Below are positions 5,590 to 11,400 of a stretch of 64,000 bases of DNA, one piece after another (position 1 is the stretch's first letter; every line of letters starts with the position of its first letter). The position numbers were made by a program, and so were the translations under genes. The notes below the pieces were generated by a model. It was not told the origin of the DNA. It saw only the letters and a list, made by a program, of their open reading frames with translations, and did not search any database. The stretch comes from Cryphonectria parasitica EP155 (lineage: Eukaryota > Ascomycota > Sordariomycetes > Diaporthales > Cryphonectriaceae), in NCBI RefSeq assembly GCF_011745365.1, contig NW_024468909.1:4712001-4776000 (forward strand). The letters are read 5' to 3'.

Positions 5590-6803
5590 ATGGGTTTCGC
5601 GCCAAGAGGACGTGGTGGTGACCGTGGAGGCCGCGGGGGCGGCTTCCGTGGTGGTGATCGAGGTGGTCGCGGCGGTGGCAGAGGTGGTGGCAGCTTCCGC
5701 GGTGGTGACCGAGGTGAGATAAAAATTCGTGTTGCTGAAGGTTATACAACACCATTGCTAACGTTAACCCAGGCGGTCGCGGTGGTGGCAGGGGTCGTGG
5801 CGGTCCTGGTGGCCGTGGTGGACGCGGAGGTGGTCGTGGAGGTCGTGGAGGCGCAGGCGGCGGCGCTGGTGGAAAGAAGATGATTGTGGTACGTCCAAGT
5901 CCCCCCTTTCACGAGCTGCAGATTATGTTGAAGGGTCGCTTACATACCATCTTTGCAGGAACCCCATCGTCACGGAGGTGTCTTTGTCGTCCGCGGCGGC
6001 AAGGAAGATCTCTTGGCCACTGCCAATCTGACCCCGGGTGAGAGCGTCTATAACGAGAAGCGCGTTGCGATCGAGAATGCGAAGAGCCAGGACGGCACCA
6101 CGACCAAGACCGAATACCGTATCTGGAACCCTTTCAGATCGAAGCTGGCTGCTGGTATCCTGGGTGGTCTCGAGACCATTTACATCAAGCCTGGCTCCAA
6201 GGCTCTCTATCTCGGTGCTGCTTCTGGTACCTCCGTTTCCCACGTCGCCGACATCGTCGGACCTACTGGCACCGTCTACGCCGTCGAATTCTCCCACCGG
6301 TCTGGTCGCGACCTCATCAATATGGCCACCCGCCGCACAAACGTTGTTCCCATCGTCGAGGATGCCAGACAACCCCTCAAGTACCGCATGCTCGTCGACA
6401 TGGTTGATTTCATCTTCGCAGAGTATGTCAAAGTCCTAACTCTTTGGATTGCAGTGGACAGAAAAGCTAACGAACCATAGTGTTGCTCAACCTGACCAAG
6501 CCAGAATCGTCGCTCTGAATGCTAAGCTCTTCCTGAAGCAAGGTGGTGGCATGCTCATCTCCATCAAGGCGAACTGTATCGACTCGACTGCGCCTCCTGA
6601 GCAGGTCTTTGCCCAGGAGGTCGAGAAGCTGAGATCGGAGAAGTTCTTCCCCAAGGAGCAGCTTACCCTGGAGCCCTACGAGAGAGATCACGCTGTAGGT
6701 CAACCCTGTGCTTGCATATATGTTTAAAACACGTCACATGATGTCGCTAACAACCACACAGATGGTGTCTGCGGTCTACCGGCAGAAGGAGTTCGTGGAA
6801 TAG
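5590..6803 (+). CDS. NOP1: Fibrillarin, rRNA 2'-O-methyltransferase (NOP1)
   Basis: Catalytic subunit of box C/D snoRNPs in the nucleolus; it 2'-O-methylates rRNA using SAM, and homologues also methylate a histone H2A glutamine. Exons are 5590-5713, 5773-5888, 5959-6422, 6481-6694 and 6762-6803, giving 319 residues (yeast Nop1 has 327). Residues 1-77 form the Gly/Arg-rich GAR domain. The Rossmann core follows, with [20 protein letters not shown] as the SAM-binding loop, [10 protein letters not shown] carrying the acidic ribose-binding residue, VEDARQP, and MVDFIFADVAQPDQ built across intron 3. It ends [10 protein letters not shown]. Three of the four introns carry perfect GCTAAC branch sites. 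All splice phases close. It shares its upstream region with RPL17. Confidence 0.98.
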
Positions 6804-7807: not shown

Positions 7808-8430
7808 TCACTTCAGCTCGCTGTCGCCAGACTTGTGGACACCATGCGCGTTGCTGACGTTCGTCAGGCCGCTGGAGTCCGTGCAATTGCTGCAATTGAT
7901 CATGTTCTGCAACACACAACTCTGTCTGTCAGCCTCATCGGCGTCTTGTGGCCTCCACAAACAAGAAGAAAAAAAATTGGGGGGGGGGGGGGGGAGGTCT
8001 TCAAATCCGTCAGCGTACCCAGCAGTCTTCCAGGTTGCTGCTGTTCTTGCAGTTCTGCAGTCACGCGAAGATTGTTAGGGCGCTCAGAACGTCGCGAGCA
8101 ATGGGTCCCCTTCGTCTGATTCTCCAACATGTCTACGAGGGGGGTACTGCCTGGGTCTGGAGCAGGTGGCACTTACAGTGCAGTCCACGCAGTTGCTACA
8201 GCTATTGAGCTTCTCGCAATTGGTACCTGAAAAGGGTAAGCCAGATTGACTCGGACACGGGATGCTTGTTCCTGAGGATATATGAGGGGAAAGAATACGT
8301 CGCAACCTCGTGCTGGTGCGAACGGACAGTGGTCTGATTCCAGCCGGGACTTACAGTTGCTGCTATTCCGGCAGTCATAGCAGTCGATCATGTTTGAGCA
8401 GTCGGTATTACCGTTCTCGTCGGTACCCAT
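7808..8430 (-). CDS. Cysteine-rich tripeptide-repeat protein, 86 aa, four exons
   Basis: Exons on the minus strand are 8355-8430, 8177-8226, 8019-8054 and 7808-7906. Introns are 128, 122 and 112 nt; the donors are GTAAGT, GTAAGT and GTACGC, and the acceptors TTTTCAG, CTGCAG and TTGCAG. Phases close to give 86 residues. Residues 9-68 form 20 consecutive triplets of the form x-(N/D)-(C/S/L/M), for example SNC, TNC, VDC, EDC. All 12 cysteines, at 11, 17, 20, 26, 29, 35, 38, 41, 44, 53, 59 and 62, sit on the third position. No signal peptide or membrane segment is visible, so the protein is probably intracellular. Exon 3 is exactly four triplets. I do not recognise a named family. A metal-binding, disulfide or extended helical fold are all possible. 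The periodicity kept across three splice junctions is strong evidence that the gene is real. Confidence 0.82.
7979..7994 (+). repeat. G16 homopolymer inside an intron
   Basis: Sixteen consecutive G on the plus strand. On the coding (minus) strand this is C16 followed by a T-run within intron 3 of the cysteine-repeat gene, so it contributes to an extended pyrimidine tract. It is likely to vary in length between isolates. Confidence 0.9.
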
Positions 8431-11400
8431 GATTACTGATGCGGAGTAAGGAGAGTCGTACGGTTCAACGGAGAAGAATAAATTTTATGTTAAGTGTCGG
8501 GGTGAGATGCTTGACCTATCATTAATTGTATGACTTGGAATCCACAATCAGCCTTCTGGGACTACAATACAGAGTAATAACAGGGGAAGCGAGAACGTTA
8601 TAAAGCTTGAGGTTCTTTGACTGTGCCCTTATCCTCGCCGCTCCTTTGACCCGCCCCCCCGGCAGCAAAGAGCGCGTACCCCGAATAGTGCATGTCCGTC
8701 TGACAAAGTCACGCACAATGACGAAATGGACATACGAAAACCTGCATCATCCTATCCGGACGTAATCCCCCGAAGAGCTGGCTTGTGAGACTGGATTAGT
8801 TGGGCCAATTGAGGCGGAGGACATCCTTCATCAGACCGTTCGACTTGCTGACGGCTACTTGGCAGATTGAGAAGAGGGTGTTATAGGGTGGTCATGCTTG
8901 CTTGATTTACGCGCCTTCGATAGAGACAATATGGGGCCAAAAACAGCAAGATTTCACTCTTGTCATCGTGATCGGAATCGGACGCCACTACCTATATCAG
9001 GGAGGTGAATTGAAGGACGAATCTTTGTGAGGGCTGTTGCTTCGCCAATGGAAGACCTCCGCTTCACTTCTCAAGTGACCTTCCCTTACCAGGCCAATCT
9101 GCTTTCTGTGTGGCCAAGATGAGTGCTGCTCCTGTTCCCGGGCTTGATGATGGCCCTTGTCGGCGTTATCTTTACGGAAAGGGTCGCAGGCCCCAGGACC
9201 TTGCGATTGTTGGATTTAACACAGATCAACCTGTCGCGGCTGACCATCATAGGCAATCTGATGAAAGATACATCGTCGGTTCCTTCGGACAACGAGACCT
9301 CTCGTATGCGACAGCTAAAAGGAGTGACCACTCCCAGCTGACTGGAAACGGCTGTGGCCTATATAGCTGCGTAAAACGGTCGGACTCACACATCTCGAAG
9401 CTGGTGAATCACGACGAGTGCGTCGTACGCAAAAGTCAGCTATTCCAGCCGTGTCATGTCCATCTCATACTTCAGGTCCTGTGCCTCGATTTCTGCATCC
9501 CACTGAGAAGCAGCAGTGGTAGCAGTGGGACAGCACCATTACTGCTCGTTGGGCCGCCCAGTTGGCTTGGTGTCCTAGCCTGGTCTGTTAGGCAAGGCGA
9601 CGCCGGGCCTCTCTTGCTTGTGGCGACCACCGCATCCATGGGTACGAACATCAGGATGACAGCCTCATCCTCCTCTTGTCCATCTTGACCATACCTTGTA
9701 TGGCCACGGTCTGATTCAGTCAGAGTTGAGATGCGATGGTACATGTGAGAAGAGGGACCTGCGTTTATCAAGAAGTCTGTTCGGCTACTGTGGAAGCTCT
9801 CAACGGGACAGTCATGATGTACCTATACCATAAGCGTCCACAAATCCATGGTAAATACGCAGCAAGAGGGGCGATCTGCAGAAACCCCGGAGCCACGAGC
9901 TACTGGCGGTTATTTGAGAAAGAAAAGGCAGGAAGCACACACTGCAAACCAAGCCTTACTTGTAACTGGGTGCTGTCCTCGAGGTGATACCCTTTCAAGC
10001 AACAACAGCTTCGATACATGGTTAACACTTGGAAGTCGAGCAGAGAGCTCCATGGCGGCCATACACAACTTTTGACAGGCAACGTCAACCAAAAAAAACC
10101 TTTCTTATTGGAAAGGAGAGAGAATGCCACAACCTTATGGACTTTCGATGGAGCCCAGCCAGACAGCAGGGCCTCCTTTACATTTAGACCTGCGGTCATG
10201 CTTTCTGATTGAGTGAGCGAAGAGCTTCATGATCTTCCTCAATATAATAATTCCCTCACAGAAAAGTCGTACCCGCTCAAGATACACCTTACAGCAAGAA
10301 AACACGTCTCAAGGGATCATCCTAGAGATCTTAGCCTTTTTCTCTAGCAGGTGTTGCTTGTATATCAACGTGCAACACCCTTCGCCTTATCCTAAGATCC
10401 CAACAAATCTCCAAGAGGAACGTTGAGGATGATCAGAATCGCCGGGAAACTTGAGAATAAGGGAGCAGGGAATGTACCGCACAGAAAGGCCGACAATGAA
10501 GACTCGCCGACGAGCCAAGGACTTTCACTTCTGCTGGATCTTCGGTTCTCAGGGGGATTTCCAGGACTACGGGGTGAATTCCTGGTATCGCAACTTTGCA
10601 GAAGTTCCCCTTCGAAGCGCTAGCCACATAGGACCGTCACGTTCTCCGTCCCAAGGTCAAGATGGATCGTCAAAGACACGAACCAGGTAAGATCACCAGG
10701 GTCTGAGCGGCGGTGAGTTCCTCTCAAGGTGAGGCTTACATCCCACGTCCATCACTTCATGTCTTGGGAGGTCGATCAGTTCCGCGGTAGCCATGGAGAT
10801 GCCACGAGTTGTACTTCAGATTGAGACTATATCCTCTTTCAAAGGGACGTTTGTTTATACATGGTATTATGGTAGGAAAAATGGATTGCTGAGGATCAGT
10901 TCCTAGAAAATGATATGACTGGGTACTGGCAGGAGAGCCTCGACGCTGACGTCGTGGGTATAATCCTCTCTACACCTCTGCTGCAGACACTCGACGCCAA
11001 GTATGGTATTTCAAAGCTGAGTAATATATGACTGCTCAGTGTTCACGCTCACCTTTCAGTTGTCCACTTCCGATATGTGGCGTGGTGAAAGTATAGCGAA
11101 ATGGCATTGCAAACTGGGAGTATCGGACCGACTTCGACCTGCTGGGAAAAGAAGAAAGGCTGCGAGGTGGTTCCGGTGTTTCGAAGCTCGCAGCCGAAAA
11201 GAAAGTCACCGCATGCGAGCTTACTAGGAGGGAGGCAACCAGGCACTGATATCCCATATCGCCTTGTGCGAATCTACACAGGAACACAAGCGAAGATCGT
11301 TAAGGGGGCGTCACAGGGGTTTGAGCAGCTGGCGCAAACGCGTACCGGAAACTTTTCTGACGTTTTGAAGCCCGCAAGGAAAAATGTAAAGCCCTTGTCA

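Follow-up and report, generated by a model that had tools for sequence, protein, structure and literature searches.

The 64,000-nucleotide stretch of the Cryphonectria parasitica genome analysed here, referred to as the window, almost certainly carries on its minus strand a real, intron-bearing nuclear gene in which four exons join to give 86 codons and a stop. The protein that it encodes very probably belongs to a class of x-N-C triplet-repeat proteins, and the joint claim of a gene that is also a member of this class is considered likely. Judged from its sequence, the locus represents a fungal, intron-containing form of a still uncharacterised class of repeats that is also present in viral and prokaryotic contigs. 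A cysteine-triplet repeat catalogued in the PHROGs collection without a function can apparently also take the form of an intron-split fungal gene, seemingly one that annotation has missed.

Gene model and triplet register

Splicing the locus as originally predicted reproduced the coordinates, the length and the composition of the repeat. Residues 9-68 form 20 unbroken triplets of the type x-(N/D)-(C/S/L/M), in which the third position is cysteine 12 times, serine and leucine three times each, and methionine twice. The second position is asparagine in 11 triplets and aspartate in six (N/D in 17/20), with one lysine, one serine and one glycine. All 12 cysteines of the 86-mer fall into a single register, which is maintained across three introns with canonical GT and AG termini, again as first described.

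Table 1. Features of the triplet gene, in window positions
Feature	Positions	Strand	Details
Exon 1	8355..8430	-	codons 1-25 and first base of codon 26; start ATG 8430-8428
Intron 1	8227..8354	-	GTAAGT...CAG; branch-site-like CTTAC 8240-8236; also found by spliced search
Exon 2	8177..8226	-	one of the joined exons
Intron 2	8055..8176	-	GTAAGT...CAG; branch-site-like CTAAC 8078-8074; also found by spliced search
Exon 3	8019..8054	-	36 bases, 12 codons
Intron 3	7907..8018	-	GTACGC...CAG; branch-site-like CTGAC 7932-7928; also found by spliced search
Exon 4	7808..7906	-	includes stop codon 7810-7808
N-terminal cap D4-C11	8398..8421	-	motif D-x-N-G-N-x-(N/D)-C; common to some phage and bacterial triplet proteins
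C-terminal tail T63-K86	7811..7882	-	Cys pattern fades; resembles P0140 C-terminus

The donor hexamer shared by introns 1 and 2 accounts for 0.29% of the GT dinucleotides in the window. In introns 1, 2 and 3, the A of the branch-site-like element lies 10, 20 and 22 bases from the intron end, respectively; across the whole window, a comparable stretch before YAG contains CTRAY in 263 of 3602 cases and CTNAY in 579 of 3602. The GC content at third codon positions (GC3) of the gene is 0.80, and the start codon has an A at -3 and a G at +4. The donor, branch-like and GC3 signals are independent of the triplet pattern scored below. In the unspliced frame of exon 1, a stop lies upstream, ahead of the stretch starting at 8484. 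Intron 1 is free of stops in the entering frame, so that an unspliced 85-residue open reading frame (ORF) is also present; introns 2 and 3 contain stops in their entering frames. Inside the introns, a weaker motif (RAY followed by a codon for C, S, L or M) occurs four times, out of register.

The strength of the pattern was assessed with a spliced dynamic-programming search that rewards N or D at the second position and C at the third (M, S, L, V, I and A to a lesser extent), allows GTRNG...YAG introns of 45-160 bases, and uses weights chosen after the original prediction had been read. The search returned exactly the three introns of the gene model, with a score of 84.5. Both strands of the window were covered by 160 overlapping chunks, of which the second-ranking one (27.5) overlapped exon 4 of the same gene, and the best score elsewhere was 15.0. 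Dinucleotide-shuffled versions of the locus, 1000 in all, gave a mean of 9.2 and a maximum of 21.5. The argument that chance stitching would be unlikely to hold such a register is borne out by these values, and the proposal of a hidden but real gene is supported by the pattern score, the splice signals and the relative P0140 described below.

The gene is probably unannotated, since a 100% match to an F-box-like gene of the window (P0001) was retrieved from the same protein database that yielded no match for the 86-mer. The F-box-like gene occupies positions 27-1799 on the plus strand and matches an 879-residue database protein; its best named relatives, from Cytospora and Diaporthe, share 43-45% identity with it across most of the protein, which points to a host of the Diaporthales type. 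A fibrillarin gene lies at 5953-6803 on the plus strand (Pfam Fibrillarin, E 1.1e-66 on the ORF 5953-6477), and its 3' end faces that of the triplet gene, which makes it a useful synteny anchor. No paralogue of the triplet gene was found in the genome itself (43.8 Mb, 17 contigs).

The x-N-C class and the closest relative

A search of the protein database with the 86-mer itself gave no homologue. With a synthetic triplet consensus as the query, 42 proteins were recovered from 51 candidates at E values up to 10. The PHROGs profile phrog_15341 matches all 42 of them at E values up to 0.01, and it matches residues 8-72 of the window protein with an E value of 1.3e-8. This last match spans profile positions 27-88, or 62 of 276, which places the window protein with the repeat class and not as a full member of phrog_15341; the PHROG matches may also partly reflect shared Cys/Asn composition and register. 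The expectation that no named family would be found held for Pfam (no family at E values up to 10, within HMMER's filters) and for NCBIfam, but the match to phrog_15341, which has no assigned function, means that the repeat is not unique. The CXXC zinc finger and the pentapeptide repeat of Pfam were both rejected at the same Pfam threshold. No paper on x-N-C triplet proteins was recognised in searches of the literature, a result that, with search terms of this kind, only weakly suggests that none exists.

At the DNA level, a pattern of six triplet units was matched in at least 119 stretches of prokaryote genomes and at least 120 stretches of viral contigs. Among the matches listed, the x-N-C frame is open across the match in 109/119 prokaryote and 120/120 viral cases, and neither of the other two frames of that strand is longer in 54/119 and 93/120. 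Many of the 80 prokaryote matches that were inspected are 9-base tandem repeats and probably do not encode proteins. A stricter filter on the matches listed left 72 distinct ORFs with varied triplets, nine of them in prokaryote loci, one of which (L088) still resembles a simple tandem. A query built by aligning P0140 with the window protein found 14 viral loci. Only a minority of the class carries the window protein's start cap D-x-N-G-N-x-(N/D)-C: four of the 42 database proteins and five of the 72 ORFs have it.

Several observations concern the class as a whole. In P0122, P0124, P0126, P0128, P0133, L050, L069 and L102, a head resembling D/S-x-N-N/G-x-K/R-W precedes the triplet array, and several of them also have a CGCF-like tail; Pfam gave no match for the head-bearing P0122 and P0124. 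A precomputed Pfam label of P0141, PF27784.1, was absent on rescanning against Pfam. Tandem repeats of 9 bases, which occur in the fungal genome itself as well as in many bacterial loci, can mislead searches for the triplet pattern; one such repeat, with a spurious frame that reads Cys at every third residue, lies at L005 1501-1524 in the fungal genome.

The closest relative of the window protein is P0140, which has 167 residues, comes from the database's ENA section (23-kb contig) and provides the homologue with a conserved Cys register that the original prediction had proposed to look for. An ungapped alignment of the two proteins covers 74 residues (50% identity), running across all three splice junctions and into the less regular tail, and MAFFT places them in the same register across both array and tail. 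The ungapped score of 227 for P0140 was the best among the 42 triplet proteins, the next being 172. When all 23 triplets were permuted, 1 of 1000 trials reached this score; the figure was 48 of 1000 when only the first 18 were permuted and the tail was left in place, which indicates that triplet order adds little beyond the tail and that the specific signal resides mostly there. It is important to note that P0140 was found by the synthetic triplet query and was therefore selected without regard to its tail. The tail alone scored 51 against P0140 and 31 against the next protein, and none of 120 shuffled tails reached 51.

The shared tail, of the form SGL-x-N-x-SN-x-x-GVH after the triplet array, is found in only this one of the 42 triplet relatives; the word CSNM of the window protein also occurs in P0125 and P0148. 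P0140 differs from the window protein in its more regular array, with 17 successive Cys triplets, and in having about 100 extra N-terminal residues that include a hydrophobic segment. This presequence-like N-terminal part and its hydrophobic segment are absent from the window gene model. No upstream exon for such an N-terminus was found in the window, where short or diverged exons could escape detection.

Predicted fold, proposed function and alternative readings

The original prediction had suggested an extended helix with one Cys face. This is not supported by the AlphaFold2 model of P0140, computed for the protein alone, which appears as a beta-solenoid with strands every 12 residues and block means of 75-88 pLDDT over residues 101-150. 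When the window protein is arranged on a 12-residue coil, its third-position residues would form four columns, not one face. A narrow beta-solenoid with four triplets per coil is the slightly favoured fold, in which, by analogy with the model of the relative, C, L, M and S would be stacked inside and N/D would lie beside the turns. Self-similarity of the 86-mer peaks when the sequence is offset by 24 residues (p 0.002, or 0.027 after correction for the 12 shifts), which would equal two 12-residue coils; a shift of 12 alone is not significant (p 0.53), and a shift of 18 gives p 0.02.

An out-of-frame (RNC)n control, which had 7 Cys triplets compared with the 17 of P0140, reached about 50 pLDDT with the same 12-residue spacing. 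A published report describes AlphaFold2 as over-predicting solenoids for repeat sequences (PMC11795689), which makes the beta-solenoid reading of P0140 a weak one. A Foldseek search with the P0140 model gave two viral models in BFVD, with E values of 1.1e-3 (rmsd 4.2) and 2.2e-3 (rmsd 0.7 over 51 columns), and nothing at 0.001 or better in the PDB or BFVD. These two entries, H6SUK4 and A0A5B8IEK9, are labelled Caib/baif family and TNFR-Cys, labels that are suspected to be misannotations.

For the function, a small cytosolic structural or binding module with reduced thiols is put forward as a tentative model. The 86-mer has a net charge of -7, and hydropathy reveals no evident signal peptide or membrane segment in the gene model (highest 19-residue Kyte-Doolittle mean, -0.04), for which reason the protein is taken to be cytosolic. 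The small acidic protein might thus stay in the reducing cytosol, its cysteines would be packed mainly as reduced core thiols, and the solenoid would act as the module, all of which is proposed with less assurance than the fold. At the third position, cysteine is exchanged with L, M, S, V and A, a pattern that would favour packing over metal binding.

The main rivals to this function are a metal-thiolate protein and a mitochondrial protein, both of which are rather unlikely. As a metallothionein-like protein, the 86-mer would bind Zn(II), Cu(I) or Cd(II) through its 12 cysteines and buffer metal, and its six overlapping CxxC motifs, its acidity and the lack of a hydrophobic segment are consistent with such a role. 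However, CxC motifs and Pfam matches are absent, and the exchanges at the Cys position would be expected of a packed core and not of fixed ligands. If instead N-terminal exons had been missed, as P0140 suggests, the repeat would reside inside a mitochondrial compartment. Ahead of its triplets, P0140 has a positive N-terminus (net charge +6 over residues 1-60), an RSFSAS sequence and a single hydrophobic segment (the 19-residue maximum, a Kyte-Doolittle mean of 1.53, starts at position 64), and it shares its tail with the window protein; moreover, a tblastn piece of P0140 (residues 79-135) begins at 8481, upstream of the ATG, and a possible acceptor CAG lies at 8438-8436. Yet that piece scores mainly through triplets, and a stop just upstream closes its frame. 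Among the best 30 tblastn pieces, no other piece from the N-terminal part of P0140 exceeds 23.1 bits in the window, an upstream hydrophobic stretch (frame from 8628) is bounded by a stop on either side and followed by no GTRNG donor, and the context of the ATG at 8430 also argues against missed exons.

Two further alternatives question the gene itself. That a degenerate 9-base DNA repeat reads x-N-C by accident, and that no protein gene exists here, is barely credible: such tandems do yield spurious frames of this kind, as in many of the inspected prokaryote matches and in the fungal genome itself, where L260 carries a 9-base tandem from position 1495 with Cys at every third residue, but the units of the window gene have diverged, vary at the first position while N/D and Cys codons are kept, and stay in register across well-formed introns, and the tail has a relative. 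It is very improbable that the locus is a non-functional copy, decayed or recently acquired, of a triplet gene from a phage or bacterium. The related loci that can be placed are in viral and prokaryote contigs, and the lack of a paralogue would fit such an origin; against it stand a frame open across four exons, fungal-type introns, the high GC3 and the presence of the same tail in P0140.

It is conceivable, if rather speculative, that fungal genomes contain a family of very small, unannotated genes encoding Cys-core beta-solenoids, which is shared with phages and bacteria through ancient transfer or common descent, is split by introns, and has been missed by gene finders because its exons are so small; its ladder of reduced thiols would then represent a new type of core. 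If the fold is correct, a core of stacked free thiols would be unusual, and with a protein of only 86 residues it should be easy to test.

Comparison with known systems

The antifreeze protein of Tenebrio molitor (1ezg, 1l1i) is counted among the closest known systems. Insect antifreeze proteins of the Tenebrio type carry a TCT ice-binding motif, and membership of this group was rejected for the 86-mer, which contains no TCT. Fungal metallothioneins usually have CxC motifs, and the window protein, with six CxxC and no CxC, was likewise not assigned to them.

Closer likenesses lie within the triplet class. The family phrog_15341 consists of virus proteins and has the same triplet register as the window protein. 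In a methanotrophic gill symbiont of Bathymodiolus (L028), two stand-alone ORFs of 94 and 124 residues consist mostly of triplets and, like the window protein, have D-x-x-G-N-x-N-C near the start. The arrays of such stand-alone bacterial ORFs are longer than that of the window gene and carry Cys at almost every third residue, and each ORF is a single open frame. The PHROGs library is built of virus proteins, whereas the window gene is fungal and interrupted by introns.
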